Shown: positions 14,682-30,355 of the stretch, in pieces | Layout of the letters: every line of letters starts with the position of its first letter | How positions within the stretch are numbered: position 1 is the first letter of the stretch | Assembly (NCBI GenBank): GCA_944322695.1 | Contig: CALUPQ010000081.1 | Location: forward strand, 1-38,834 | Reading direction: 5' to 3' | Source: an uncultured Mailhella sp. | Lineage (GTDB): Bacteria; Desulfobacterota; Desulfovibrionia; Desulfovibrionales; Desulfovibrionaceae | Length of the DNA stretch: 38,834 bases | Translations under genes and position numbers: made by a program | The notes under the pieces: model-generated | The model's database searches: none | What the model was told of the DNA's origin: nothing | Seen by the model: the letters and a program-made list of their open reading frames with translations, nothing else

Positions 14682-14697
14682 TGGCACGCTCTTTGCT
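14682..14697 (+). promoter_or_regulatory. Sigma-54 promoter of assT operon 1
   Basis: TGGCACGCTCTTTGCT matches the -24/-12 consensus TGGCACG-N4-TTGCW at every defined position. The expected start near 14708 leaves a leader of about 38 bases. Confidence 0.9.
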
Positions 14698-14745
14698 ACA
14701 GCTATGACAAAGTCCTTCCGCCTTCAATTTTACAAAGGAAGATAT

Positions 14746-16212
14746 ATGAACCGTCGTCAATTTCTCATGGGTCTGTCCGCCGCTGCGGCGGCTGCGGCGT
14801 CCCCCTCTCTGAGCTGGGCCTTCCCCTCCGTATTCCCCCACGGCACCACCATCTACAAGCCCGAAAAGTGCTGGAACGGCTACACCGTCTTTGGTGTCGA
14901 AACCGCAGGTCAGGGCTGCGTGCTCATCGACATGAACGGCAACGTCGTGCACGAATGGAAGAACGTGAGCGAGCTTGAGCATCCCGCCAAGCTGCTCAAG
15001 GGCGGCTACGTGATGGGCGCCACCCGTCAGAAACCGGAAATGGTCGGCCGTACCTACGGCGACCCCATGTCCGCAGACCTCTCCATCTGCGACTGGGACG
15101 GCAACATCGTCCGCAACATTCCGCTTGCGGGCATGCACCACGACTTTCAGGTGGAGGGTAATCCCACGGGCTACTTCTCCCCTGCCATGGAGGTGGAGTA
15201 CAAACCCGAGGGTAAAATACTCGTTCTCTCCCATCTCTTCACGGAAAATCCCGCTATCACGAAGAAAAAACCGCTGGACGACGACTATATCTTCGAGGTG
15301 GACAAGGACAACAATATTCTGTGGGACTGGAAGGCCTTTGAACACTTCGATGAGCTGAATCTCCCCGAAGACATGAAAAAGGCCATGTACAGATTCCCCA
15401 CCTGGCAGATGACCCGCACCCCGGGCGTCAAGGCGGCGGATTGGATGCACATGAACTCCGCCTCCTATCTCGGCCCCAATCACTGGTACGATGAAGACCC
15501 GGTCAAGTACGCCGCCTTCCACCCCGACAACATCATCTGCTCCTGCCGCCAGCTCAACATCTGCTTCATCATTGACAAGAAAACAAAAAAAATTGTCTGG
15601 CAGATTGGCCCCACCTTCTATCCCGACGACAAATGGATATTTGCCGGCAAGGAATACAAGCGAGCTCTGTACAGGCTCGGCCAGATAGTCGGCCAGCATC
15701 ACTGCCACATGATTCCCAGGGGACTGCCCGGCGAAGGCAACATTCTGGTGTACGACAACGGTGGCTTTGCCGGTTACGGAGAAAGAAACCCCACGGCTCC
15801 CTTTGGCTGGAGCAACGCCCGCCGCGACTACTCCCGCGTCATCGAGTTCGACCCGGTCACCCTCAAGAAGGTGTGGGAACACTCCGCAGCCACCATGGGC
15901 CTGCGCGAAACCTACAAGTTCTACAGCGACTACGTGAGCTCCGCCCAGCGCCTGCCCAACGGCAACACCCTCATCACCAACGGCGCGGTGGGGCAGTTCC
16001 AGGAAGTCACTCCCGACCACGAAATCGTGTGGGAATACATCAGCCCCTGGTACAACCCCAACGGCAAGTTCAACCTGGTCTATCGCGCCTACCGCGTGCC
16101 CTACGACTACGTTCCGCAGCTCAAGAAGCCGCAGGAATTCGCGGTCACCCCGCCGGAAAACATCACCTTCACCATTCCGGCCAGCAAGACGCCCTACAGT
16201 CCTAAAGCGTAA
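14746..16212 (+). CDS. Arylsulfotransferase (ASST) family protein, Tat-exported
   Basis: 488 residues from ATG 14746, preceded by AAGGAAG. A twin-arginine signal (NRRQFLMG, hydrophobic Ala-rich core, cleavage near 25) predicts export of a folded protein to the periplasm. The body is a beta-propeller-like ASST domain with blocks such as LIDMNGNVVHEW, WDGNIV, IFEVDKDNNILWDW and SAQRLPNGNTLI. Candidate active-site residues are His235 (HMNS), His318/His319/His321 (QHHCH) and Arg364 (YSR), matching histidine and arginine positions of E. coli AssT as I remember them. ASST moves sulfate from an aryl sulfate ester to a phenol without PAPS. It heads an operon with two HhH proteins behind a sigma-54 promoter. 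Natural donor and acceptor are unknown, and no DsbL/DsbI pair is seen. Confidence 0.88.
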   Translation: MNRRQFLMGLSAAAAAAASPSLSWAFPSVFPHGTTIYKPEKCWNGYTVFGVETAGQGCVLIDMNGNVVHEWKNVSELEHPAKLLKGGYVMGATRQKPEMVGRTYGDPMSADLSICDWDGNIVRNIPLAGMHHDFQVEGNPTGYFSPAMEVEYKPEGKILVLSHLFTENPAITKKKPLDDDYIFEVDKDNNILWDWKAFEHFDELNLPEDMKKAMYRFPTWQMTRTPGVKAADWMHMNSASYLGPNHWYDEDPVKYAAFHPDNIICSCRQLNICFIIDKKTKKIVWQIGPTFYPDDKWIFAGKEYKRALYRLGQIVGQHHCHMIPRGLPGEGNILVYDNGGFAGYGERNPTAPFGWSNARRDYSRVIEFDPVTLKKVWEHSAATMGLRETYKFYSDYVSSAQRLPNGNTLITNGAVGQFQEVTPDHEIVWEYISPWYNPNGKFNLVYRAYRVPYDYVPQLKKPQEFAVTPPENITFTIPASKTPYSPKA

Positions 16213-16336: not shown

Positions 16337-16672
16337 ATGAAAAACTCCCTCTCCGCTCTTCTTTTCGGCGCCTTTCTCTGTGTCGCCTCCCCCGCACTGG
16401 CCGAAGACGTGGAACTCGGTCCCGACGCCTTCGACTTGAACAAGGCCACGGCGGAACAGCTCATGGAAATCCCCGACGCCAACATCACCCCGGACATGGC
16501 GGCCGCCATCGTGGAGATGGCCAGCAAAAAGCCTTTCGAGCTTCCCGAGGACTTTCTGAAGGTTCCGGGACTGGACAACCACACTCTCCAAGCCATCAAT
16601 CCCATTGAGCATGACGGAACGCTGTGGTACGATCCTGACGCCGAATTCACCCTTGCACCTTCAAAGTGTTGA
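16337..16672 (+). CDS. Small secreted helix-hairpin-helix protein 1
   Basis: 111 residues with a Sec signal peptide (to about SPALA, 22). The mature part has a ComEA-like HhH layout: FDLNKATAEQLMEIPDANI, then AAAIVEMASKKPFELPEDFLKVPGLDNHTL. The Gly of the canonical PGIG turn is replaced (PGLD), so DNA binding is doubtful. A family-specific tail (INPIEHDGTLWYDPDAEF) recurs in the next gene and, in altered form, at 19267. It lies 124 bases after assT1 in the same direction, separated by a hairpin. Its likely role as a partner or chaperone of the sulfotransferase is inference from repeated pairing. Codons are GC-rich, like assT1. Confidence 0.82.
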   Translation: MKNSLSALLFGAFLCVASPALAEDVELGPDAFDLNKATAEQLMEIPDANITPDMAAAIVEMASKKPFELPEDFLKVPGLDNHTLQAINPIEHDGTLWYDPDAEFTLAPSKC

Positions 16673-16689
16673 TTTTATCGGAGAAAAAT

Positions 16690-17007
16690 ATGCGTCTACC
16701 CCGTATAGTCATGCCTTTCCTTGCAGTCTGTCTCATAACTGCGCAGGCATATGCGGGCTCTTTCAGCTTCAACAGGGCCAGTGCAAAAAAAATGGTTCAT
16801 GACTGCGCGGAAGAAGGCATAACGCTTCCTTTGGAAATTGCACTGGCCATTGTTGAAGCACGTTCCGAAAAACGCTTCACTCGTTCCGAAGAGTTAATAT
16901 CGATACCAGGCATGACGGAAGACCTATTTATATTACTTGACCCAATTGAAGAAGAAAATGATTTGGTTTTCAACCCAAATGCCCTTCCTGGCATGAAATC
17001 ATACTGA
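16690..17007 (+). CDS. Small secreted helix-hairpin-helix protein 2
   Basis: 105 residues from ATG 16690 (GGAG upstream), with a Sec signal ending AQAYA. The layout is as in HhH protein 1: a first hairpin lacking Gly (EEGITLPLEIALAIVEARSEKRF), a second hairpin SEELISIPGMTEDLF, then the tail LDPIEEENDLVFNPNALPG. It lies 17 bases after HhH 1, so it is a tandem paralogue in the same operon. Base composition becomes markedly A+T richer towards its 3' end, continuing into the spacer, which hints at a recombination joint or different ancestry. Confidence 0.78.
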   Translation: MRLPRIVMPFLAVCLITAQAYAGSFSFNRASAKKMVHDCAEEGITLPLEIALAIVEARSEKRFTRSEELISIPGMTEDLFILLDPIEEENDLVFNPNALPGMKSY

Positions 17008-17376: not shown

Positions 17377-17568
17377 TGAGATAGTTCAGCAATGCACGGG
17401 GTTACGCTCGAACATATTTTTCGAAAAAACGACTAAAGACCACAGCTCTTTCCTCTCCTGGCAGAGCAGATGGAAAGATAGTTGGCAATACTCATCAGAC
17501 ATAAAGGAGGCACCCAGCAACATATCCGGCCCGTAGGAAGTCCCCTATTGAAACCATCTGGAGGAACA

Positions 17569-19050
17569 ATGAAAAAGCTTTGTACGGTCATTATGGTTAT
17601 GAGTTTATGTGTGGCAGCTTCCCCCGCCATGGCACAACCTGAAATTCATCCAACCGGCGTTACTATATACAAGCCGGAAAAAGCATGGCCCGGCTATACG
17701 CTGCTCGGAGTTGCCCCTTTCAACCAGAGCAAAACAGAATATGACGGTTCCTACCTCATCAACATGAACGGTGATGTTCTTAAGAAATGGCCGTTGTATG
17801 ACTCCGTCAAAATTTATCCTGGAGGATATGTATCTGGGCAGCGTGGTGTTCATAACTCAACCAAGATGCTGGAACTCGACTGGGACGGCAATGTCGTATG
17901 GTCCTACCTCGACCACCGCATGAATCATGACGCTCAGCGCTGGCCGAACCCCGTTGGATACTACACGCCGGAAAAAGGCATGGCCCCCCCGGCTCTGAAT
18001 GCTCCCCGTACTCTCATTAACAGCGGAGAAGGCCTGCTGCAAAAGCACGATATGCCCAACAATCTGGTTTTGCGAGATTGCCAGTTCTTTGAAGTGGACT
18101 GGTCCGGCAAAGTGCTCTGGCAGTGGAAGCTCAGCGATCATTGGAAAGAGCTGAATCTCAGCGAACAGGCTCTTAAAGCTCTGGCCGTAAATAAGAAATA
18201 CGACCCTAAAAAGGGCCTGGACTGGGCACATATCAACAGCCTGAGCTACATAGGCCCCAACCCCTGGTATGATGCAGGAGATGAACGTTTCAATCCTGAA
18301 AATCTTCTTTTCAGCATAAGAAACATCAATTTCGTCGGAATAGTTGACAAGAAAAGCGGTAAGATTGTCTGGAGACTTGGTCCAGACGCCAGAGAGCAGA
18401 AAAGCTGGATGAAAATCGGTCAGCTGATAGGTCCCCACGGCGCCCATATCATTCCCAAGGGGCTCCCAGGGGCAGGCAATCTGCTGGTTTTCGACAACGG
18501 CGGTTACGGAGGGCTTGGCAACTCGACCGGCACCTCTCCCGACGGCAACAACATAGAACGCCGCCACTACTCCCGTGTGCTTGAAATCAATCCCGTTACC
18601 TTCCAGACCGTTTGGGAGTATTCTACGTATACGGCCCTTCAGCCCACGCTCAAGGGAAATACTCGTCAGGTCTCCAAGGTATTCTTCTCTCTCTTCACCA
18701 GTAACGCACAGCGTCTTCCCAACGGCAATACTCTGATATGTGAAGGTGGTACCGGTCGTATTTTTGAAGTGACCGCCGATAACGAGCTTGTCTGGGAATT
18801 TGTGGACTACTATTCTCGCGATATCGACAACTTCAATACTGTTTTCAGAGCCTATCGTATTCCTTATGAGTGGATTCCCCAGTTGACCCCGCCGAAGAAG
18901 GAAGACCATAAGGCTGTCATACCTCCCCGCATGATTCAGTTCCGCCTGATTCCCGGAGAAAACGGTTCCGTCGCCAAGCCTGTCGTTATCGATGAACAGC
19001 AGTTCCTGAAGGATGACCCGGCCCTTCCCGTACTGCCCAAACTGGATTAG
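17569..19050 (+). CDS. Arylsulfotransferase (ASST) family protein, Sec-exported
   Basis: 493 residues from ATG 17569 (GGAGG upstream). A Sec signal peptide (MKKLCTVIMVMSLCVAASPAMA) replaces the Tat signal of the paralogue at 14746. Shared blocks are TGVTIYKPEKAWPGYTL, LINMNGDVLKKW, DWDGNVVWSY, INSLSYIGPNPWYD, IIPKGLPGAGNLLVFDNGG and NAQRLPNGNTLI. Candidate active-site residues are His221 (HINS), His290/His293 (PHGAH) and Arg336 (YSR). The two ASSTs are clearly paralogous but diverged and may act on different phenols or donors. The G+C content is lower than in neighbouring housekeeping genes (18061-18120 is 30 of 60), suggesting separate acquisition rather than recent duplication. An HhH gene follows 216 bases downstream. 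Confidence 0.88.
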   Translation: MKKLCTVIMVMSLCVAASPAMAQPEIHPTGVTIYKPEKAWPGYTLLGVAPFNQSKTEYDGSYLINMNGDVLKKWPLYDSVKIYPGGYVSGQRGVHNSTKMLELDWDGNVVWSYLDHRMNHDAQRWPNPVGYYTPEKGMAPPALNAPRTLINSGEGLLQKHDMPNNLVLRDCQFFEVDWSGKVLWQWKLSDHWKELNLSEQALKALAVNKKYDPKKGLDWAHINSLSYIGPNPWYDAGDERFNPENLLFSIRNINFVGIVDKKSGKIVWRLGPDAREQKSWMKIGQLIGPHGAHIIPKGLPGAGNLLVFDNGGYGGLGNSTGTSPDGNNIERRHYSRVLEINPVTFQTVWEYSTYTALQPTLKGNTRQVSKVFFSLFTSNAQRLPNGNTLICEGGTGRIFEVTADNELVWEFVDYYSRDIDNFNTVFRAYRIPYEWIPQLTPPKKEDHKAVIPPRMIQFRLIPGENGSVAKPVVIDEQQFLKDDPALPVLPKLD

Positions 19051-19266: not shown

Positions 19267-19590
19267 ATGAAAAAAGTCCTGTCGATAGCTGCCATACTGT
19301 GCCTTCTTTCAGGAACAGCAGAAGCCGTTGAACGCATTGATATCAACAGCGCCACTGTTGATGAGCTATCTGAAGTCGAATGCTTCGATAAAGAAATGGC
19401 TCAATCCATTGCTTCTTACAGAGAAAAAAATGGCCCCTTCAAAAACGTCGTACAGTTCATGATGATTCCCGGCATGACAACGGATTTGTCGGCGATTCTT
19501 GAGCCCGAGGCGGAGGGAGACAAATTTACAATAAACATGGCAATCCCGGAAGAACTCAACATGGAAATTTTCGACGCTCCCGTCTACTGA
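19267..19590 (+). CDS. Small secreted helix-hairpin-helix protein 3
   Basis: 107 residues (AAGGAG upstream) with a Sec signal ending GTAEA. A ComEA-like start, IDINSATVDELSEVECFDKEMAQSIASYREKNGPF, is followed by the second hairpin MMIPGMTTDLSAI and a tail with EPEAEGDKFTIN and an acidic C-terminus. The conserved Gly pairs of DNA-binding HhH motifs are absent. It is the last gene of the second ASST operon, closed by a strong terminator. Confidence 0.82.
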   Translation: MKKVLSIAAILCLLSGTAEAVERIDINSATVDELSEVECFDKEMAQSIASYREKNGPFKNVVQFMMIPGMTTDLSAILEPEAEGDKFTINMAIPEELNMEIFDAPVY

Positions 19591-20232: not shown

Positions 20233-22500
20233 ATGACAGACAGTACCAGTCTTAACACTTCAAGTACCGGAAAAACCTATCCGGCCAGCGCGCCCACCGG
20301 CCCCCTCACGCTGGAGCAGGCGGAAGCAATGGCCGCACGCCGGGGCGAAACGGTGGTGCCCACCTGGTGCGGCATGTGCGGGCCGCGGGGCAACTGCGCC
20401 GTCTATGCCTTTGTGAAGGACGGAAAATTTCTCCGCGTGGCGGGCATGAAGGAAGCCCCCTCCAACAGAGGAGGCCTGTGCTGCAAGGCCCACGCCGCGC
20501 CGCAGTGGGTCTATTCCGGGGACAGGCTCACCACGCCGCTGAAGCGCGTGGGGGAAAAGGGGGAAGGCAGGTTCGTTCCCATAAGCTGGGACGAGGCGCT
20601 GCAAACCATAGCTGACACGCTGAAGGCGCAGAAAAAGGCCTTCGGCCCCGAATCCCTCGCCGTTCTTTCCCCCGCAAGGCGCAACTACAGCGAATATCTC
20701 TACCGCCTTCTCACCGCGCACGGCAGTCCCAACTACGGGCACAGCGGCATCTGCGCCATGCAGCTTTTCTTCGGCTTCTGCCATACCGTGGGCGCGCGCC
20801 CCGTGCCGGACTATAAGAACGCCGACGTCATCCTCATCTGGGGCAAGCAGCCCGTGTATTCCGGCCCGCCGCTGGGCTCGGCCGCAGCCCTGGTGAAGGC
20901 CTTCCACCGCGGCGCGCGCATCTACGCCATCAAACCTTCCCTCGAAGCGGACGGCAGCTTCGCCACGGACTGGATTGCCGTCCGGCCCGGCACGGACGCG
21001 GCGCTCGCTCTCGCCATGCTCCATGTGGTCACGCGCGAGAACCTCATCGACAAAGAATTCGTGGAGAAGTGGTGCTACGGCTACGACAGGCTGGCCGAAC
21101 ACGTGCGTCAGTATTCTCCCGCCTGGGCGGAAAACGTCTGCGGCGTGCCGGCCGCGACCATCGAGGAGCTGGCCCGCACCTACGCCACCACCAAAAGAGC
21201 CACCATCGACTTCGGCAACGGCCTCGAACATGCCCCATCCGCCAGCGACGCCATCCGCGCCATCGCCATGCTCATGGCCGTCACCGGGCACCTCGACAGG
21301 CCGGGCGGAAACCTGTTCCCGGGCAAGGGTTCCACCATGCCCGCGCCGCGCAGCGTACACCTGAAGGAGCGCTACGCCCCCGAATGGCTGGACAAGATTG
21401 TGGGACCGGAATTTCCGCGCGTCTTTCAGCCCTTCCGGGAAGGAACCTCCGCCGCCTACCCGCGCCTTTTTGCAGACGTGCTGAAGGATTCTCCCGTCAT
21501 CCACACCATCATCGCGCCGGGCAGCCAGCCCACGGTGAGCACCCGTAACCCGCGCGGGGTCATCGAGGCGCTGAAAAAGCTGGACTTCTACGTCGTCATC
21601 GACACGCACCGCACCGCGGACACGGCCTATGCCGACATCGTGCTGCCCGCCCTCACCCCCTACGAAATCGACCATCCCTTCGAAGTGCGCGGTCCCTTCA
21701 TCATGGCCCGCAACAAAGTCGTCGAACCCGTGGGACAGGGCCGCTCCATGCAGCAGATTATCATGGACATCGGCGTGGCTCTCGGATACGGCGACGACTT
21801 CTGGCAGGGAGACATGAAGACGGCCATGGACTGGCAGCTCGAACCGCTCGGCATGACCATGGAGGAGCTCCGCGCCCACCGCACGGGCATCGTCTATCCT
21901 CCGGCCGGAGAGCGTACCTTTGAAAAGTACGACGAGGTGTTCCACACCCGAAGCTCCCGCCTGGACAGGGCCCCGTACCTTGCACAGGGCAAGGTCGCGC
22001 TGTACAACACGCGGTTCGAGGAGGCAGGCTTTGCTCCCATGCCGCGCTGGGTGGAGCCCGTGGAAAGCGTGAGCGGCACGCCGGAGCTGTTGAAGGACTA
22101 CCCTCTCGTCCTGTCCGACTACCACACGTCCCGCAGCTTTTCCGCAGGATGGCAGCGCAACGTGCCGTATCTGCGCGAGGTGGAAAAGGAGCCCTCCCTG
22201 CACATACACCCGGAAACGGCAAAAGAGCACGGCATAGCAGACGGGGACAGAGTCACCGTCACCTCGCCTCACGGCAGCCTCACGGTCCGTGCCGAATACT
22301 ACCCCGGCATAAGAAAGGACACGGTCATGCTGCTGCACGGCTGGTGGCAGGGCTGCAAGGAGCTCGGCCTTGCCGACATGCCGCTGCTGGACGGAGGAGC
22401 CAACGTCAACGTTCTCTACTCACCCGACCTTGAAAGAGGAGCCGACCCCCTCGTCACGGCCATAGGCAGCCAGACGCTGGTCAACGTGCGCAGGGCCTGA
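20233..22500 (+). CDS. Molybdopterin-dependent oxidoreductase, catalytic subunit (cytoplasmic, DMSO reductase family)
   Basis: 755 residues. An N-terminal [4Fe-4S] motif C46-x2-C49-x5-C55 plus Cys83/84, then bis-MGD domains with WDEALQTIA, GSPNYGHSGICAMQ (Cys174 is the candidate Mo ligand), and a C-terminal molydopterin dinucleotide-binding domain (HPETAKEHGIADGDRVTVTSPHG). No Tat or Sec signal is present, so it should act in the cytoplasm, unlike PhsA/PsrA or DmsA. Cytoplasmic two-subunit members include pyrogallol-phloroglucinol transhydroxylase; related enzymes dehydroxylate catechols. Given adjoining phenol-handling sulfotransferases, a phenolic substrate is attractive but is inference. 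GAGAGGGG precedes the start, and the Fe-S partner follows 24 bases on. Confidence 0.85.
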   Translation: MTDSTSLNTSSTGKTYPASAPTGPLTLEQAEAMAARRGETVVPTWCGMCGPRGNCAVYAFVKDGKFLRVAGMKEAPSNRGGLCCKAHAAPQWVYSGDRLTTPLKRVGEKGEGRFVPISWDEALQTIADTLKAQKKAFGPESLAVLSPARRNYSEYLYRLLTAHGSPNYGHSGICAMQLFFGFCHTVGARPVPDYKNADVILIWGKQPVYSGPPLGSAAALVKAFHRGARIYAIKPSLEADGSFATDWIAVRPGTDAALALAMLHVVTRENLIDKEFVEKWCYGYDRLAEHVRQYSPAWAENVCGVPAATIEELARTYATTKRATIDFGNGLEHAPSASDAIRAIAMLMAVTGHLDRPGGNLFPGKGSTMPAPRSVHLKERYAPEWLDKIVGPEFPRVFQPFREGTSAAYPRLFADVLKDSPVIHTIIAPGSQPTVSTRNPRGVIEALKKLDFYVVIDTHRTADTAYADIVLPALTPYEIDHPFEVRGPFIMARNKVVEPVGQGRSMQQIIMDIGVALGYGDDFWQGDMKTAMDWQLEPLGMTMEELRAHRTGIVYPPAGERTFEKYDEVFHTRSSRLDRAPYLAQGKVALYNTRFEEAGFAPMPRWVEPVESVSGTPELLKDYPLVLSDYHTSRSFSAGWQRNVPYLREVEKEPSLHIHPETAKEHGIADGDRVTVTSPHGSLTVRAEYYPGIRKDTVMLLHGWWQGCKELGLADMPLLDGGANVNVLYSPDLERGADPLVTAIGSQTLVNVRRA

Positions 22501-22524: not shown

Positions 22525-23037
22525 ATGAATACCGAATACAAGATTCTGTTTGATGCGGAGCGCTGCGTGGCCTGTCACGGCTGCGTCGTCGCCTGCAGGG
22601 CATGGCGGGAACTTCCGACGGACATCTTTTTCCGCCGCCTGGAAACCATCTGGCAGAAAGGGGAACCCATGCCCCGCCTGCGCCATGCGTCCGTGGCCTG
22701 CCAGCACTGCGCGGAGCCTGCCTGCGTGGAGGCCTGCCCCGTGGGCGCCATCCGTAAAAACGCCGACGGCCTCGTGCTGGTGGATGAAGACTCGTGCGTG
22801 GGCTGCCGCGCCTGCGAAAGCGCCTGCCCCTTCGGCGTGCCGCAGTATCCCGAAAAGAGCGGCGGGAACATGGCCAAGTGCGACCTGTGCCTCGGTCGCT
22901 TCGACATGGAAAAGGAAGAGCCTCCCTGCGTGGCCACCTGCCCCACCCGCGCCCTCGCTCTGGTGAGGATGGATGCGGAAGAAAAGAAGCGGACGGAAAA
23001 GGCCCTGCTCAACCTGCTGGCCTCCGGCACTCTGTAG
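22525..23037 (+). CDS. Four-cluster ferredoxin-type electron-transfer subunit
   Basis: 170 residues with four Cys groups of the DmsB/PhsB type: CVACHGCVVAC, CQHCAEPACVEACP, CVGCRACESACP, and CDLC followed later by CVATCP. No signal or membrane segment is present. It lies 24 bases behind the molybdoenzyme gene and surely forms its partner, passing electrons between the [4Fe-4S] centre of the large subunit and a soluble donor. No membrane anchor subunit gene follows, consistent with a soluble heterodimer. Confidence 0.9.
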   Translation: MNTEYKILFDAERCVACHGCVVACRAWRELPTDIFFRRLETIWQKGEPMPRLRHASVACQHCAEPACVEACPVGAIRKNADGLVLVDEDSCVGCRACESACPFGVPQYPEKSGGNMAKCDLCLGRFDMEKEEPPCVATCPTRALALVRMDAEEKKRTEKALLNLLASGTL

Positions 23038-23312: not shown

Positions 23313-24707
23313 CTATCCCTTCCTGTCCATGAGGCCGAACTGCTCAAGCTTGTCGTAAAGCGTTCTTCTGCCTATGCCGAGAAGTTCGGCCGCCTGCGTC
23401 TTATTTCCGCTGCACAGGGCAAGCGCCTGCTGCAGCGCCTGAACTTCGGCGTTGCGCACGGCGTCGGAAAGGGACAGCGGCGTATCCGAAGCGCCGACGT
23501 CCCCGGATGAAGGCACGGTGAAGGGCACGGCATCCGCAAGGGAGCCCAGGGATTCGGGCATGAGCTTGTCGCCCTCCGTCAGAAGAAAGGCCCTCTCCAG
23601 CACATTTTCCAGTTCGCGGATGTTGCCCTTCCACGGCTGGCTGTACAGAATGTTCATGGCCGCCGGGCTTATCTGCGTCACGTTGCGGCCGTAGCGCGCG
23701 TTGAAGCGGTTGATGAAAAAGCCGATAAGAGCCGCAAGGTCCTCGCGTCTCTCGCGCAGCGGCGGAAGATACAGCGGAATGACGGAAAGACGGTAGAAAA
23801 GGTCCTCACGGAAGCGCCCCGTCTTCACGTCCTCTTCCAGGCGGCGGTGCGTGGCCGCGATGAAGCGCACGTCGATGCTCACGCTTTTGTTGCTGCCCAC
23901 GGGACGGATTTCATGTTCCTGAATGGCGCGCAGCAGCTTGGCCTGCGTGGAAGGGGAAAGCTCGCCTATTTCGTCCAGAAACACCGTGCCGCCCTGCGCC
24001 TCCTCCAGAAGGCCGCGGCGGCTGTTCACCGCGCCGGTGAAGGCGCCCTTCACATGCCCGAAAAGCTCGCTCTCAAGAAGGGATTCCGGCAACGCCGCGC
24101 AGTCGATGGTGAGAAAGGGTCTGTCCCTGAACGCGCTTGCGCGATGCACGTATTCCGCAAGCCTGCTCTTGCCCGTACCCGTCTCGCCGGTAATGAGAAT
24201 GGGCACGCTGGTGGCCGCCACCTTGCGGATGATTTGCAAAACCTGCTTCATGGCGGGGCTGTTGTATATCATGGACACCTGAGTGTGTTCTTCGCAGGGC
24301 TTTTCCTGAAGCTGGCTGTGCAGCCTCGCATGCTCGGCCGCGCGCTGCACCAGGGAGGCGAGCTCGGCATTGTTCACGGGCTTGGTCAGGTAGCTGTATG
24401 CGCCGAGCTGCACGGCCTCCACCGCGCTTTCGATGGTGCCCACGCCCGTCATCATGATGAAGGGCAGCTGGGCGTTCATGGCGCGCACGCGGCGCAGCAC
24501 CTCAAGCCCGCTCATGCCGGGCATGGAAAGGTCGCACACCACCACGTCTATGCCGCCCGCGGCCATGCGGGCCAGCGCCCTTTCGCCGGAAAGGGCCGTT
24601 TCCGTCTTCCAGCCCTTGCGGGAAAAAAGCAGGGCCAGAATTTCATGCCACTCGGGGTCGTCGTCCACCACCAGAATCTGATAACCGCTTTTTCTGCTTT
24701 CGCTCAT
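23313..24707 (-). CDS. Sigma-54-dependent response regulator (NtrC family)
   Basis: 464 residues from 24707, preceded by AGGTGAG; the longer frame upstream has no conserved start. Order: receiver domain (Asp15-17 acidic pocket, phospho-acceptor Asp59 in CDLSMPG, Thr at MMTG, Lys at TKP), AAA+ domain with Walker A GETGTGKS (Lys180), sigma-54 contact loop GAFTGA (221-226) and Walker B VFLDEIGEL, then a Fis-type helix-turn-helix GNKTQAAELLGIGRRTLYDKL at the C-terminus. All key residues are intact. It should bind upstream palindromes and drive sigma-54 promoters after phosphorylation, probably by the kinase at 12582-14522. It is divergent from the third sigma-54 operon, with two candidate binding sites in between. 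Confidence 0.93.
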   Translation of the reverse strand: MSESRKSGYQILVVDDDPEWHEILALLFSRKGWKTETALSGERALARMAAGGIDVVVCDLSMPGMSGLEVLRRVRAMNAQLPFIMMTGVGTIESAVEAVQLGAYSYLTKPVNNAELASLVQRAAEHARLHSQLQEKPCEEHTQVSMIYNSPAMKQVLQIIRKVAATSVPILITGETGTGKSRLAEYVHRASAFRDRPFLTIDCAALPESLLESELFGHVKGAFTGAVNSRRGLLEEAQGGTVFLDEIGELSPSTQAKLLRAIQEHEIRPVGSNKSVSIDVRFIAATHRRLEEDVKTGRFREDLFYRLSVIPLYLPPLRERREDLAALIGFFINRFNARYGRNVTQISPAAMNILYSQPWKGNIRELENVLERAFLLTEGDKLMPESLGSLADAVPFTVPSSGDVGASDTPLSLSDAVRNAEVQALQQALALCSGNKTQAAELLGIGRRTLYDKLEQFGLMDRKG

Positions 24708-24790
24708 CGTCTCACCTGAAGCGTCATTTTGCAAAGAACATAGTAGCGGCAACGCAGGCGCGCGTAAAGAAAAACCCGTTTTTTCCCCCT

Positions 24791-24914: not shown

Positions 24915-24930
24915 TGGAACGATTCCTGCA
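24915..24930 (+). promoter_or_regulatory. Sigma-54 promoter of operon 3
   Basis: TGGAACGATTCCTGCA: the -24 GG and -12 GC doublets are correctly spaced. It differs from consensus at the fourth base (A for C) and at the first T of TTGCA. The expected start near 24941 leaves a leader of about 93 bases. Confidence 0.75.
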
Positions 24931-25033
24931 TAACACTCGCATGGCAAGACTTCTCCGTTCCGTCCGGTGCACGCCTGCGGAAACGGGTACCCCTTCCTTT
25001 CGGCCAGACCTTTCAAAACACAAGGAAGTTTTA

Positions 25034-27931
25034 ATGAACAAACTTCTCGTTTCCGGCGCCGCGGCAGTGCTGCTCTGCCTTCTGTGTTCCGGCGCCCCGG
25101 CTGCGGAAAGCCCGCATGGCCTCGCTCCGGCGGGCGACATGCCCTTCATTCCCGACCTCGGGGGCCTGCGCCACAAGGCCTTCAAAAACCAGTACGGCCA
25201 GCAGCGCGAACTTTCCGAAGCCGTGCTTGTCAGGCAAAGCTCCGTGAAGGACGGCAAAGCCGCCGTGCCTGCGGGCGGGCTGTGCTACATTTCGGAAACG
25301 GAAGAGGACGCCGCGCCCTTCCGCCGCGACCCGTTCCTCGTGCTCGGGGAGCACGCCTATCTTGTGGACCTGAAGCAGACCGTGCGCACCGTGCGCGACG
25401 TCAATCTGAAAAAGGGCGAGAAGGTGCTCGTCGACGACGCGGGCTACCGCCTGTGGTTCGACTACGCCACCGACCATTACGATTTGCCCTACATCCAGAT
25501 GGCGCTCATCGCCCCCTCGGGCCACTGGCCCATGGAATTTTCCGTTTCCTCCAAGTTCCCCGCCATCAAGGACCTGCCCGACCGCAGCCACATGGAAGGC
25601 GACGTGGAACAGCTCGACGAATTCTTCCTCGACCCCGTGTTCGACTACGGCGCGAGCCGCTTCGAAGTGAAGGACCACGACTTCACCAAGGCGCATTTCG
25701 CCGCGCTCAGCTATCCCGTCATCGAGGAGGCCACCTTCTCGCTCTCCCGCCCCGTGGTGCTCGACCTCAGGCAGGAGGAATACCGCCTCTACGGCACCAA
25801 GCGCATCTACGCCTTCCGCGAAAGCAGCGGCTTCCGCGTCCGCGTGACGGATTTTTCCGGCAGCACCGTGCTGGCCGAAAAGCTGGTGCGCCCCGTCAGC
25901 TCCCAGGGCTACAAGGACGAGGATAAGGAAAAGGACGCCTACAGCCTCACCGTGCCCGGCGAGGACATGCGCATCGAAATCGCCGTGCAGCCCGAATACC
26001 TGCGCCATTCCGACTTCATGCCCTGGTCCACGGCCGTCCCGCACGACTGGCAGGACGGCGTGCTGAGCTTCGTCATCTACCGCGACCTCGTCACCGTGAA
26101 GAACGGCGAAGCCTGGCCGCTTGATGCCCGCTACAAGGTGGGGCTCGAAGCGAACCTGCTCACCGGCAAGCTCCAGCGCCTCACGCTGGAAAACGCGGAA
26201 GCCTTCACGCTCGACGCCGAAAACGACAGCTTCGACGGACCCGTGAAGTACTCGGACATCTGGAACCGTCCCGCCTTCCGTCTCGTGGCCGACGACATCG
26301 AAGGCGACAAGGTGAAAAGCTACTACCTGCGCGACGCCTTCTTCCAGCGTACCGACAACCTCGCCTTCACGGACAAGGGCCGCAAGGACATCGACTGCTT
26401 CATCGGCCGCGCCCCGACCTTCATCTCCATTCTGGAAGACAGCTTCCTCACCCGTCTGGCCATGCCGGAATTCGGTACGGAAGTGCAGGGCTCGCACTTC
26501 ACCTCCTTCCCCAGCGTCATGCCCAACATGGCCTTCCACTCCCCGGACCCCACGGCTCCCTTCGGCGGCCTCATGCGCGGCTTCGGGCGCGAACAGGTGA
26601 CCAACCGCCGCGGCGAAAGACTCACCTCCTCCGAAGGCCTCGTCATCCGCGGCAGCTACGTGGACTGGAAGAACAACCGCATCGTCATTCCGCCCTCCGG
26701 TCTGTTCTACACCTCACGCAACGCCCGCAACGTGCGCGCCCTGAACGGCGAAACCTTCTACATGCTCGGCCGCCGCGCCTACATCGCCACCTTCGAATCC
26801 ACGACCTTCACGCGCCGCAACTTCGACATCGACTTCTGGCGCGTGCAGCCCGACGCCAGCCAGCATCCCATCTACTGGCAGGACCAGCCTCTCGGCGTGA
26901 ACAACAAGGTGCTGCGCCTCACCGAAAGCCACCTGCTCGACGACAGGCCCATGGCGCAAATCAACGTGGTGAAGTACTCGGGCAACAACTTCGGCGCGCC
27001 CTTCGAACTTGCGCAGGGCCTCAGCCGCGAACAGGGCGACCGCTACTACCTGCACGACCGCTTCGCCGAAGGCGCCACCTGGATTGAGCCGGAATTCGTG
27101 GGCGAAACCTACGTGCGCGTGAAGAGCTTCGGCACGCCCGCCATCCAGAACGTGCAGTACACCTACGAAAAGCCCGTGCGCGTCCTGCTCGCTCCCGGCG
27201 AGGAAAAGGCCGTGGGCAAGAACCATGCGCTGAAGCTCGTCGCCTTCGACGAAGCCGCCGGCACGAGCACCGTCGAACTTCGCAGAAACGACGGCTCTCT
27301 GGTGGAAACAAGGACCCTCGGCCCCCTCACGGCAGAGACCCGCGCCTTCCTGCCCCAGCATCAGCGCGTGGTGAACTCCCTGCAGTTCCAGTTCGACGAA
27401 GGCAAGAACAAGGTGCTCGCCGAAATGGACGTGAAGACGCCTTTCGAAAAGGGCAAGGCCGCCTTCTACACCTACGTGGATTTGAGAAAGCTCGAAAGCG
27501 ACACCCCCTACGAAGGCGACCCGCGCTTCATGGTGCGGCCCGACGTGTGCGGTCACTGCTACCAGCTCAATGAAGTGCTGCTGGACAACCCCGAGCCCAT
27601 CATCCTCGACAAGGAGCATCCCCGCTTCGACGGTCCGCTCATGGCCGACGGCAAGCCCCAGTTCAGCATCGTCATCGACAGCTTCGACGGCGAAATGATT
27701 CACGCCTGGCACATCGAGACCAACTACCGCAAGCGCGTGTTCAAGAGCGCCAACCTCGCCTTCCAGCCGCGCAACAACATCGACGTGCTCATGGGCGTGA
27801 ACGGCACCATCGAAGGCTTTTTGCGCGCCTCGCTCATGGAGCGCTCCGCCTGGCAGGAATACTGGCGCACCGGCACGCATCCTCACCCCGAACGTGGGCT
27901 CGACGCATGGCTGGCCCACAAGTTCCAATAG
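25034..27931 (+). CDS. Large exported protein with internal duplication, unknown family
   Basis: 965 residues from ATG 25034 (AAGGAAG upstream), with a Sec signal ending APAAE (~24). I do not recognise the family. It is built from two related halves: residues ~52-125 (NQYGQQRELSEAVLVRQ, PAGGLCY, FLVLGEHAYL) align with ~525-600 (NRRGERLTSSEGLVIRG, PPSGLFY, FYMLGRRAYI). A beta-rich, Asp/Tyr/Trp-rich pattern suggests a periplasmic or surface beta structure. A late CGHC pair (near residue 838) could form a disulfide or bind metal; it is not a haem motif because no His follows. It is the first gene of a sigma-54 operon with a YeiH-like transporter, two tiny membrane proteins and a distal HhH protein. 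A catalytic or binding role parallel to the ASSTs is inferred from that pairing only. Confidence 0.82.
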   Translation: MNKLLVSGAAAVLLCLLCSGAPAAESPHGLAPAGDMPFIPDLGGLRHKAFKNQYGQQRELSEAVLVRQSSVKDGKAAVPAGGLCYISETEEDAAPFRRDPFLVLGEHAYLVDLKQTVRTVRDVNLKKGEKVLVDDAGYRLWFDYATDHYDLPYIQMALIAPSGHWPMEFSVSSKFPAIKDLPDRSHMEGDVEQLDEFFLDPVFDYGASRFEVKDHDFTKAHFAALSYPVIEEATFSLSRPVVLDLRQEEYRLYGTKRIYAFRESSGFRVRVTDFSGSTVLAEKLVRPVSSQGYKDEDKEKDAYSLTVPGEDMRIEIAVQPEYLRHSDFMPWSTAVPHDWQDGVLSFVIYRDLVTVKNGEAWPLDARYKVGLEANLLTGKLQRLTLENAEAFTLDAENDSFDGPVKYSDIWNRPAFRLVADDIEGDKVKSYYLRDAFFQRTDNLAFTDKGRKDIDCFIGRAPTFISILEDSFLTRLAMPEFGTEVQGSHFTSFPSVMPNMAFHSPDPTAPFGGLMRGFGREQVTNRRGERLTSSEGLVIRGSYVDWKNNRIVIPPSGLFYTSRNARNVRALNGETFYMLGRRAYIATFESTTFTRRNFDIDFWRVQPDASQHPIYWQDQPLGVNNKVLRLTESHLLDDRPMAQINVVKYSGNNFGAPFELAQGLSREQGDRYYLHDRFAEGATWIEPEFVGETYVRVKSFGTPAIQNVQYTYEKPVRVLLAPGEEKAVGKNHALKLVAFDEAAGTSTVELRRNDGSLVETRTLGPLTAETRAFLPQHQRVVNSLQFQFDEGKNKVLAEMDVKTPFEKGKAAFYTYVDLRKLESDTPYEGDPRFMVRPDVCGHCYQLNEVLLDNPEPIILDKEHPRFDGPLMADGKPQFSIVIDSFDGEMIHAWHIETNYRKRVFKSANLAFQPRNNIDVLMGVNGTIEGFLRASLMERSAWQEYWRTGTHPHPERGLDAWLAHKFQ

Positions 27932-27948
27932 CATAGGCAGGTACCATC

Positions 27949-29094
27949 ATGAATATTCCCTATGAGGAGCGCCGTCGCTCTTTCCTGAGCTGCTTCTACA
28001 GCATGCAGGAATCCCTGCCCGGCCTGCTGGCCATGTTCTTCATCGCGCTGTTTTCCAACAATCTCGCGGGCTCTCCGAACCCGCTGACGCTGGAAAACCT
28101 GTTCGGATGGCTTGATGGCGTCATCGGTCCGGTCAACCATCAGCCTCTCTTTCAGATACTCAACTCCAACTTCGTGTGGAACCCCTTCCTCGTCGGTCTC
28201 ATCATCGGCAACGTCTTCGGCGTGCCGGACTCCTGGAAGCGCGGACTTTCCTACATCCATAAGCTCATGCCGCTCGGCATCATCATGCTGGCGCCGCACT
28301 TCATCTTCAGTCATGCGGAGAAGGCCGGAATGCCGCTCATTCTTCTCGCCTTCGCCGTCATGCTGCTGACCTCCGTCGTCACCATGCTGCTCGGCAGGCT
28401 CCTGCGCATGGACGACCGTTTCTACTCCACCGTCGCGGGTGCCCTTTCCACGGGCGACCCCCACGTGGTGGCCATCCTCATGCCCATGCTGAAGTCCAAG
28501 GGCGGGCAGGTCATCAACGCTCTCGGCAGCATCCTGCTGTTCGGACTCGTCGCCTCCTTCCTGCTGCCCCTTCTCGGGCACGCCCTCGGCATGGAGGACA
28601 AGGCCTTCGCCGTTCTTTCCGTGTTCGGCATAGGCAACACGGGGCAGATGTTCAACGCGGCCTTCGGCTACAGCTACGAGGCCGGGCACTGGGCGCACTA
28701 CTTCGAATCCGTGCGCCACGCCCTCATGCCCGCAGGCTTCCTGTTCGTGTTCTTCGTCATGTTCATCCGCGCCCGCATCTACCGGGACGACGAGAACGTG
28801 ATGGCCACGCGCGCCCACAAAAGCCTGCCGCTCTTCATCATCGTCTTCATCATCGCCTACGTCGTGGTGCAGTTCCATGTGGTGAAGGAACCGGCCCATC
28901 TCGCCATCTTCGAACTGGTGAAGTGGGACTTCTCGCTCGCCGCAGCCGCCCTCGGCCTTTCGCTTCCCCTGCGCGAAATCGCCCAGTGGGGGCTGCGCGG
29001 CGTGGTTCTCGCCTTCACCTCCGGCATCATCCGCATCGCCGTGCTCGTCCTCTGCCTGCTCGCCGCCGCCCACTTCAACTTCCCGCTCTTCTAA
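27949..29094 (+). CDS. YeiH/UPF0324-like membrane protein (putative sulfate exporter family)
   Basis: 381 residues with about ten membrane segments. Blocks line up in order with E. coli YeiH as I remember it: SLPGLLAMFF, VGLIIGNVFG, LMPLGIIML, SILLFGLVASFLLPLL, a GQMFNAA motif where YeiH has a conserved AQVVAAG, and SLAAAALGLSL near the end. The YeiH signature SICGAAAV is replaced by LSTGDPHVV, so specificity probably differs. The family is annotated as putative sulfate exporters, though direct evidence for most members is thin. It lies 17 bases behind the 965-residue protein gene. Handling of sulfate or sulfite released by the periplasmic enzymes is possible but inferred. Confidence 0.75.
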   Translation: MNIPYEERRRSFLSCFYSMQESLPGLLAMFFIALFSNNLAGSPNPLTLENLFGWLDGVIGPVNHQPLFQILNSNFVWNPFLVGLIIGNVFGVPDSWKRGLSYIHKLMPLGIIMLAPHFIFSHAEKAGMPLILLAFAVMLLTSVVTMLLGRLLRMDDRFYSTVAGALSTGDPHVVAILMPMLKSKGGQVINALGSILLFGLVASFLLPLLGHALGMEDKAFAVLSVFGIGNTGQMFNAAFGYSYEAGHWAHYFESVRHALMPAGFLFVFFVMFIRARIYRDDENVMATRAHKSLPLFIIVFIIAYVVVQFHVVKEPAHLAIFELVKWDFSLAAAALGLSLPLREIAQWGLRGVVLAFTSGIIRIAVLVLCLLAAAHFNFPLF

Positions 29095-29104
29095 GGAGGA
29101 AACC

Positions 29105-29254
29105 ATGCGTCAATCCCATACCACCGACGATGCCGGTTTCAACTACATGGAAAACTCCGGGCAGGAAGAACATGACCGCGACATGGTGGGCATCATACTC
29201 GCCGTCGCCTTCATGGTCCTCACCGTGCTCGTGCAGCGCGCAGGCCTGCTCTAG
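29105..29254 (+). CDS. 49-residue single-span membrane protein
   Basis: AAGGAGG lies a few bases before ATG 29105, and the gene starts ten bases after the transporter stop. The product has an acidic soluble N-terminus (TTDDAGFNYMENSGQEEHD) and one C-terminal membrane segment (GIILAVAFMVLTVLV). It resembles small accessory subunits of membrane complexes. The strong ribosome site and operon position support expression; the function is unknown. A terminator-like hairpin follows before the next gene. Confidence 0.7.
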   Translation: MRQSHTTDDAGFNYMENSGQEEHDRDMVGIILAVAFMVLTVLVQRAGLL

Positions 29255-29348
29255 CAGGGCCACCCTTTTCCGAACAGAACACTCATAACTGTCGGACTCC
29301 CAACCTCAGCCCGGCCGGGACCTTCACCCGGCCGGAAGCCAACCCTCC

Positions 29349-29388
29349 AAAAGCCTCCCGCGTGGCGGACGTCACGCACGGGCTTTTT
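29349..29388 (+). terminator. Terminator-like hairpin inside operon 3
   Basis: AAAAGCC...CGTG pairs imperfectly with CACG...GGGCTTTT and ends in TTTTT. A second strong stem without T residues, CCGGCCGGG/CCCGGCCGG, stands just before it (29311-29335). Together they could reduce read-through into the two distal genes. Confidence 0.6.
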
Positions 29389-29402
29389 CAAGGAACCCTA
29401 CC

Positions 29403-29606
29403 ATGACAGGCATCACGTTCTACCTCCATATTCTGTTCGCCCTGCTGCTCTTCTGGGCCACGGCGACAGCCATCTACATGGGCGTATTTCACGCCCACAG
29501 GCCGGACCGCAGTCAGGGACGCCGGCACCTCTGCCTCGTCTTCTCCTCGCTGCTGTCCTTCGTCATCTGCTTCTTCATGTATTCCTGGTCCTATCTCAGC
29601 TGGTAA
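29403..29606 (+). CDS. 67-residue two-span membrane protein
   Basis: AAGGAACCCTACC precedes ATG 29403. Two membrane segments (FYLHILFALLLFWATATAIYM in part, and FSSLLSFVICFFMYSW) are joined by a basic loop, HAHRPDRSQGRRH. It lies after the internal terminator and 14 bases before HhH gene 4. The family is not recognised; it may be a membrane tether for the exported components. Confidence 0.68.
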   Translation: MTGITFYLHILFALLLFWATATAIYMGVFHAHRPDRSQGRRHLCLVFSSLLSFVICFFMYSWSYLSW

Positions 29607-29620
29607 AAAGGAGGCTCTCC

Positions 29621-29917
29621 ATGAAATCCACGCTTTCCGCCGCTCTTGCTCTGGCCCTCTGCCTCACCTTCTCCTCCGCCTCGCTGGCCGCCGATGAAGG
29701 CATCAACGTCAACACCGCCACGCAGGAAGAACTCGCTTCCGTGCCCGGCCTGAACGCCGACCTGGCCAAGGCCATCGTGGAATACCGCGAAGACATGGGC
29801 GACTTCATGTCCATCGACGAACTGGCCGACGTGCCCGGCATGAACAAGGACGCCTTTGACCAGGCCAGGCAGGTTCTGCGCGTGGACGCCATTTCCGGCG
29901 CCGAGTGCAACTGCTGA
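29621..29917 (+). CDS. Small secreted helix-hairpin-helix protein 4 (ComEA-like)
   Basis: 98 residues (AAAGGAGG upstream) with a Sec signal ending SLAA. This is the most ComEA-like of the four: INVNTATQEELASVPGLN, ADLAKAIVEYREDMGDF and SIDELADVPGMNKDAF. The hairpin turns read PGLN and PGMN instead of PGIG, which weakens a DNA-binding role. The C-terminus ends in CNC, possibly a disulfide or metal site. It closes operon 3 as HhH 1-3 close the ASST operons. A competence role is unlikely in this context, since no ComEC or pilus gene is present. Confidence 0.84.
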   Translation: MKSTLSAALALALCLTFSSASLAADEGINVNTATQEELASVPGLNADLAKAIVEYREDMGDFMSIDELADVPGMNKDAFDQARQVLRVDAISGAECNC

Positions 29918-29935
29918 TTTTCCCCTGCCTCCACG

Positions 29936-29977
29936 AAAGAAGGCGGCCGGAGCGCTCTCCGACCGCCTTCTTTTTTC
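29936..29977 (+). terminator. Terminator of operon 3
   Basis: AAGAAGGCGG-C-CGGAG - CGCT - CTCCG-A-CCGCCTTCTT stem ending in TTTTTT; one of the strongest terminators in the window. Confidence 0.93.
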
Positions 29978-30355
29978 ATCTCTTTATCGTTCCGCACCTT
30001 CCGGCAACGCCTGCAAGAACCGCCATGCCTCTGCTTGAAAAGGCAGGCACCGCCTGCCTGCAAAAACAGCGTCCCTCAAAAACACCCTGGGAAAAGGCCC
30101 AAGGGCAGGACGCTCCCCTGCATAAACGCAGTCCGCAACACGGCCGACCCCTCCGCCGTTTTTCCTCAAAGGGGCAGGATGAGGCCGGACGAAGCCTCCT
30201 CCGGAAAAGAAGAGCCCCGGGACTTTTCCGTTTCCTTTGCGCCTCTTCGGTGCTGCAAAAGGCTTAAGGAAGGTGAGAAGTCTCTGTCGAAAGCTCCCGG
30301 AAAGGCGCCCTTCCCTTTTCCGTCCGGGCCGCCGCTTTCCGAAACGCCGTACAGG
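29978..30355. other. Spacer with two hairpins between operon 3 and miaB
   Basis: No gene is convincing. A perfect 8-bp hairpin AGGCAGGC-ACC-GCCTGCCT sits at 30041-30059. It is followed by a two-part fold, GCGTCC (30069) with GGACGC (30108), enclosing CCTGGG/CCCAAGG. It could be a small RNA or nothing; no T tract or promoter was found. Confidence 0.4.

Follow-up and report, generated by a model that had tools for sequence, protein, structure and literature searches.

We analysed a 38,834-nt stretch of DNA from an uncultured Mailhella sp., a gut relative of sulfate reducers in the Desulfovibrionaceae (GenBank GCA_944322695.1, contig CALUPQ010000081.1; hereafter the window). The contig belongs to a draft genome of 77% completeness, and we paid most attention to a five-gene operon whose lead gene codes for a 965-residue exported protein that we call BIG. 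The best explanation of our results, which we hold with moderate confidence, is that BIG is the cysteine-containing, two-unit member of a family of exported proteins and selenoproteins, and that it serves as the periplasmic redox partner of a tail-cysteine carrier in a sulfur pathway. This explanation builds on a protein family with a conserved redox pair in which UGA and cysteine codons exchange, on the tail cysteines of neighboring exported proteins, on the linkage of the genes, on a promoter type shared among operons and on a resemblance in fold, each of which we observe directly. From these we infer a reaction between BIG and the carrier tail, a sulfur cargo (probably sulfite or sulfo) and the direction in which it moves. 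The five genes code on the + strand for proteins of 965, 381, 49, 67 and 98 aa, as follows:

25034..27931, + strand: BIG, 965-aa exported protein of two DUF1608-like units, the N unit without and the C unit with a CGHC pair (residues 839-842)
27548..27559, + strand: codons of the invariant C-G-H-C motif, the first Cys aligned with the UGA (selenocysteine) of single-unit relatives
27949..29094, + strand: divergent YeiH-family (PF03601, by Pfam) membrane protein, 381 aa
29105..29254, + strand: micro-protein with one transmembrane segment, 49 aa (HTTDxxGFxxMxNxGxEExDRD...); 25 distinct homologs in 28 loci
29403..29606, + strand: micro-protein with two transmembrane segments, 67 aa; 25 distinct homologs in 27 loci
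29621..29917, + strand: HhH4, exported ComEA-like protein, 98 aa, C-terminus ECNC-COOH, the proposed tail-cysteine carrier (PF12836, 3.3e-22; CxC tails across loci)
29935..29979, + strand: terminator-like inverted repeat and T run at the end of the operon, read from the sequence

The N-terminus of BIG is a Sec-type signal peptide, and the whole protein gave no match at E<=10 against Pfam-A and NCBIfam, which agrees with the preliminary description of this DNA, where it was placed in no recognised family. The C unit searched alone gave a sub-threshold match to TIGR01567, the S-layer family duplication domain (E 0.14, 11.5 bits, cut-off 121.9). An internal duplication that had been noted earlier (residues ~52-125 against ~525-600) is real, but its extent was understated. 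Specifically, BIG consists of two complete ~450-aa units, with residues ~1-480 and ~505-965 aligning end to end with independent single-unit relatives from the same genome (contig C134) and from congeners. In a maximum-likelihood tree with a midpoint root all N units form one group and all C units another, with single-unit proteins clustering with the C units, and the internal branching of the two groups is nearly a mirror image, which indicates one old duplication whose halves have since been inherited together. The two cysteines of CGHC, the classical protein disulfide isomerase (PDI) motif, are the sole invariant cysteines in 22 two-unit proteins from several phyla, and this pair has been lost from the N unit.

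The relatives with a single unit show what replaces this pair. Nearly all of them have one in-frame TGA at the first position of C-x-x-C (R-P-[ED]-T-U-x-x-C, with variants that include RPET-U-ATC, RPDT-U-ASC, RPDT-U-STC, HDT-U-NSC and similar), where two-unit proteins carry RPDV-C-GHC and where one small Mailhella single-unit clade, nested among the selenocysteine forms, carries RPEI-C-AEC. The window gene itself has TGC and not UGA at this site, and is the cysteine homolog of the selenocysteine forms. TGA-bearing single-unit genes occur in Desulfovibrionales, Desulfarculaceae, Chloroflexota, Bacillota and other metagenome-assembled genomes (MAGs), and a wider sample of the phylum likewise yielded full-length single-unit genes with one TGA and two-unit genes with none at the site. 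Among 17 distinct genes, the ~104 codons 3' of the TGA are under purifying selection, with nonsynonymous (dN) below synonymous (dS) divergence (for the pair L016/L030, dN 0.066 and dS 0.69 after the TGA). SelB was matched in all genomes tested, above cut-off in 29 of 30, and tRNA-Sec was above cut-off in 20 of 22. Judged from sequence, the BIG family is thus a new selenoprotein family, since UGA aligns with Cys, selection continues past the UGA and the genomes hold SelB and tRNA-Sec. No NCBIfam model, a curated source for many selenoprotein families according to a 2026 review (PMC13188914), meaningfully matched any member. Family members have probably been annotated as truncated because UGA is normally read as a stop. 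Recoding of TGA as sense across whole genomes was rejected on indirect grounds, with SelB and tRNA-Sec present and each gene holding one in-frame TGA at one place. Beside these single-unit genes we also observed, in Chloroflexota, a PF04143 Sulf_transp (YeeE/YedE-type) gene, a class-V aminotransferase and an AIRS-family (SelD-like) gene adjoining the BIG copy. At locus L065 (9572-13986) the selenocysteine-form gene lies beside an EgtD-like histidine methyltransferase (PF10017) and a 1131-aa open reading frame that fuses a molybdopterin oxidoreductase to a class-V aminotransferase.

A structure model of the C unit of the window protein, built with 31 sequences (mean predicted local distance difference test score 85.9, predicted template-modelling score 0.82), is all-beta. 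The protein has no thioredoxin Pfam match, and absence from fold lists does not on its own exclude a thioredoxin fold. Whereas a first Foldseek search with a single unit returned nothing at E<=0.001, the deeper C-unit alignment then gave a match to the DUF1608 domain of a Methanosarcina acetivorans S-layer protein (E 2.1e-6, for 3u2g, and 1.2e-4, probability 1.00, template-modelling score 0.2-0.35). VIA gave the model and 3u2g a Z of 10.1, which exceeds that of the next unrelated row by about 2, for 228 of 274 residues and a root-mean-square deviation of 6.3 A; the high deviation and low template-modelling score would be expected if two sub-domains differ in angle. A separate model of a selenocysteine-form single unit had the same top match (Z 8.9). 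The remaining matches of the C unit are mostly class II viral envelope proteins, to which DUF1608 has itself been likened (PMC5744192), and a search of PDB sequences with a 12-row family profile gave chance matches only. BIG and DUF1608 thus appear to share a predicted fold, from which neither homology nor function follows. One could read tandem DUF1608-like units, together with the structural similarity and the weak TIGR01567 match, as a cell-surface coat of S-layer type in which the cysteines cross-link. We consider this highly improbable, as an invariant CGHC that exchanges with selenocysteine is hard to explain in a mere scaffold, single-unit forms exist, and the gene is inherited together with transporter and redox genes.

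Several exported proteins that adjoin BIG carry cysteines at their very ends. HhH4, which the preliminary description correctly placed in the operon, is one of a set of exported HhH proteins that adjoin BIG and end in C-x-C-COOH (AECNC, FDCNC, GKDCTC, TECSC, SDCNC). HhH proteins beside ASST1-type genes (arylsulfotransferase family, ASST) end in PSKC-COOH, and a third type has no terminal Cys. The tail cysteine is absent from HhH-domain proteins at loci without BIG nearby, such as L132 and L136. One CxC-tailed HhH protein, at L134, is likewise not adjacent to BIG, and the operon of that genome is without its HhH gene. In Desulfarculaceae and a Bacillota MAG the partner of BIG is a different, non-HhH exported protein that ends in APDEGC or EESCDC. 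That one redox protein repeatedly has next to it proteins of different make-up with a terminal Cys is our best indication that BIG and the carrier tail may react. The same tails suit a second reading, in which the Sec/Cys of BIG and the C-terminal cysteines of its partner are binding sites for a soft metal or metalloid, comparable to SaoC, a Cys-Cys-COOH selenoprotein of the SAO system. In that system C-terminal cysteine motifs and selenoproteins co-occur and metal or metalloid binding has been proposed for SaoC (PMC13188914). However, metal transporters or regulators are not what surrounds BIG, whose neighbors are ASST, YeiH and, at several loci, redox complexes (molybdenum (Mo) enzyme, NrfD, cytochrome b), and no NCBIfam SAO model matched BIG units, so that we regard metal or organometal handling as quite unlikely.

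We then return to the favored role of BIG as redox partner in a sulfur pathway, for which gene linkage is informative. The preliminary description had proposed that conservation of the five-gene order be checked, and the order is strongly kept. A YeiH gene lies directly downstream of BIG in all 33 two-unit loci. Behind it come the 49-aa gene in 24 of these and the 67-aa gene in 23 (Desulfovibrionales, Desulfoluna), and ASST, a sigma-54 regulator and a kinase are within reach in 23, 25 and 20, respectively; these counts take in close relatives and are not independent events. BIG also matched no unrelated characterised family by sequence, its sole fold match being to a structural S-layer domain. 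The transporter scores 106 bits against PF03601 (cut-off 24.5) and 45 bits against TIGR00698 (cut-off 232.6), so that its earlier portrayal as a YeiH-family protein with altered signature motifs was fair. A yeiH gene is needed for sulfite resistance in Salmonella (PMC12880088). Both micro-proteins are real, with 25 distinct conserved sequences each, which rules out chance open reading frames. In the 148-bp gap between their genes there is a terminator- or attenuator-like inverted repeat (AAAAGCC...GGCTTTTTC, window 29340-29390), and the 67-aa gene and HhH4 are perhaps partly uncoupled. In distant taxa (L074, L076, L079, L082, L089, L091) a small protein that looks UspA-like by eye and has no Pfam match (cluster 21, 148-180 aa) takes the place of the micro-proteins after YeiH.

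Upstream of the BIG operon the window holds the following genes:

12582..14522, - strand: histidine kinase (a homologous kinase, at L078, has an SBP_bac_3 periplasmic sensor)
14704..16212, + strand: ASST1, arylsulfotransferase family (PF05935, 3e-28)
16337..16672, + strand: HhH1, exported HhH protein, end PSKC-COOH, partner of ASST1 (same tail in ASST-linked HhH proteins of distant loci)
16666..17007, + strand: HhH2, exported HhH protein, tail GMKSY without Cys
17482..19050, + strand: ASST2, arylsulfotransferase family (PF14269, 6.6e-17)
19267..19590, + strand: HhH3, exported HhH protein, tail FDAPVY without Cys
20233..22500, + strand: molybdopterin oxidoreductase (closest solved: acetylene hydratase, thiosulfate/polysulfide reductase)
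22525..23037, + strand: 4Fe-4S subunit of the molybdopterin enzyme

ASST1 scores 99 bits against PF05935, for which the gathering score is 24.2. An unannotated exported protein of ~171-192 aa (cluster 38, no Pfam match) adjoins ASST genes in L106, L078 and L082. The presence of ASST beside a PDI-type motif could mean that BIG is a protein-thiol oxidoreductase, that is, a DsbL-like folding helper for ASST or for the Mo enzyme. An assT-dsbL-dsbI operon in E. coli provides a precedent (PMC13426309). However, the ASST proteins of BIG loci have no conserved Cys and one has no Cys at all, and they thus lack a common structural disulfide. His and Arg residues are conserved among them, in an alignment without the E. 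coli protein and its catalytic His436. As we also saw no DsbI-like gene, and single-unit selenocysteine forms occur without ASST, this role seems very unlikely.

Many single-unit selenocysteine genes lie in clusters of HhH, BIG, Mo enzyme and Fe-S genes, to which cytochrome b or NrfD is added in some cases. MAGs of Syntrophales, Methylomirabilota, Tectomicrobia and Acidobacteria usually show the order Mo enzyme, Fe-S, NrfD, HhH, BIG, YeiH, often with ASST too. These distant two-unit and single-unit neighborhoods, along with a twin-arginine translocation (TAT)-like signal on the L112 Mo enzyme, are what one would see if BIG and its tail carrier fed a complex iron-sulfur molybdoenzyme reductase for a sulfur oxyanion or polysulfide (Sud/Psr-like), with ASST and YeiH added later. 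This is a doubtful though serious possibility, against which stand the operons of one genus (g5), with no Mo enzyme within the stretch seen and in several cases a c-type cytochrome and/or DUF1573 gene instead, and the window Mo enzyme, for which an export signal is not evident. As a separate observation, Desulfoluna and related operons (L081, L105, L106, L092-L096) have DUF1573 and multihaem c-type cytochrome genes (CxxCH; L081, L105, L106) between HhH and the kinase.

Control of these operons appears to be shared, as the preliminary description had proposed. The relevant features of the window are:

14682..14696, + strand: sigma-54-like site TGGCACGCTCTTTGC before ASST1, 11/11 consensus
23313..24710, - strand: sigma-54-dependent (NtrC-type) response regulator, ~90-92% identical and at the same place in other Mailhella
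24915..24929, + strand: sigma-54-like -24/-12 site TGGAACGATTCCTGC 5' of the BIG operon, 9/11 consensus (at -114 to -122 in close Mailhella orthologs)

With a further site before ASST2 (9/11), sigma-54-like sites precede BIG, ASST1 and ASST2 and the regulator lies between the operons, which supports shared control; about 2% of shuffled 350-bp upstream regions score at least 9. The regulator likely activates the three + strand operons. Given the site at 14682, the start of ASST1 is better placed at a later ATG, about 14746 (MNRRQF..., TAT-like), than at 14704. Comparable sites before BIG were not found in g5 genomes. The proposal that BIG acts in the same process as ASST, perhaps in capture, release or export of sulfate or a sulfated compound, held in part. 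A sulfur link is supported by ASST or a sigma-54 regulator near most two-unit loci, by YeiH at all of them and by the role of yeiH in sulfite resistance, but sulfate capture or release has no specific support and the evidence instead points to thiol/selenol redox chemistry. The earlier reading had not picked up the invariant C-G-H-C, its selenocysteine replacement in single-unit relatives, the C-terminal Cys tail of HhH4 and the DUF1608-like fold.

In the mechanism that we propose, the redox-active C-G-H-C of the C unit, which most single-unit relatives have as U-x-x-C, would be borne by a DUF1608-like beta-sandwich and not by a thioredoxin fold, and BIG would be the periplasmic thiol-disulfide (selenenylsulfide) partner of the small exported carrier. 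The C-terminal cysteines of the carrier (C-x-C-COOH) would form a swinging tail, comparable to the tail cysteine on which SoxY holds sulfur. A sulfo or other sulfur group would be loaded by ASST together with its PSKC-COOH partner, and BIG would then resolve the group held on the carrier and release a product, for example sulfite. Passage of this product across the inner membrane would be the task of the YeiH-type transporter and the two micro-proteins. The likeliest cargo is a sulfo or sulfite-level group, with YeiH moving the product, substrate and direction both being read from the neighboring genes alone. A more specific version, in which ASST passes sulfo from sulfate esters to the tail Cys, the DUF1608-fold Cys/Sec protein splits the S-sulfonate to sulfite and a YeiH-type protein imports it, we consider rather unlikely. 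Several observations weigh against the proposed mechanism. ASST is near 23 of the 33 two-unit loci and not all. The Mo enzyme of the window shares about 22-25% identity with those that adjoin distant BIG genes and belongs to another subfamily. Neither a tail-cysteine partner nor a Mo enzyme lies within the stretch seen for several single-unit genes of Mailhella/Bilophila (RPDT-U-ASC and PEIC clades). For a bacterial selenocysteine insertion element (bSECIS), the downstream hairpins vary and the 48 nt after the UGA are not more structured than synonymous shuffles. Finally, a sulfo-carrier would be without exact Sox precedent, because SoxYZ-S-sulfonate has been found not to act as a turnover intermediate in Sox (PMC5336275).

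If the more specific version, with S-sulfonate split to sulfite, is true, dissimilatory reduction would receive sulfite without ATP being spent on activating sulfate, and the redox module in its selenocysteine form would also work in other respiratory chains built on Mo enzymes. Redox selenium chemistry would gain a new kind of scaffold from a selenoprotein family with a predicted beta fold of S-layer type, and the curated models searched miss this family. The genes form a compact conserved system (redox protein, tail-cysteine carrier, YeiH transporter, two micro-proteins, ASST, Mo enzyme) found in several bacterial phyla that include gut bacteria, and with BIG the little-understood PF03601 transporters gain a partner that recurs consistently. 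The BIG family and its selenocysteine form appear to be undescribed in the libraries and open papers searched, and our literature search found no paper that joins the parts of the system. A paper on sulfur disproportionation describes MOLY and YTD clusters, with sulfotransferases, YeiH and HhH absent from its text (PMC12998232).

As kinds of part, redox selenoproteins, tail-cysteine carriers, YeiH and ASST are known, and each can be compared with what we find here. Known UxxC selenoproteins (PMC13188914) likewise have a UGA aligned with the Cys of an x-x-C pair and exchange of Sec and Cys among relatives, whereas the BIG family has no NCBIfam selenoprotein match and a predicted beta-sandwich in place of the mostly thioredoxin-like folds of the characterised ones. 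DUF1608 (Methanosarcina MA0829, PDB 3u2g/3u2h, TIGR01567) resembles BIG in predicted fold and tandem duplication, but BIG falls outside its sequence family (11.5 against 121.9 bits), is bacterial, and has a conserved CxxC/UxxC and redox or sulfur neighborhoods. The E. coli assT-dsbL-dsbI operon also links ASST genetically to an exported CxxC protein, and differs in that BIG has no thioredoxin-family match, no DsbI is seen and the ASST cysteines are not conserved. The window transporter shares PF03601 with the YeiH protein tied to sulfite stress in Salmonella, but it is far under the TIGR00698 cut-off, comes after two-unit BIG at every locus seen and is joined by two micro-proteins in Desulfovibrionales and Desulfoluna. 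Finally, by analogy with SoxYZ, the partner of BIG may be an exported carrier whose swinging tail bears a reactive Cys, but here its body is HhH (PF12836) or of low complexity, C-x-C or PSKC stands at the very end, and the adjacent genes include no recognised Sox enzymes.

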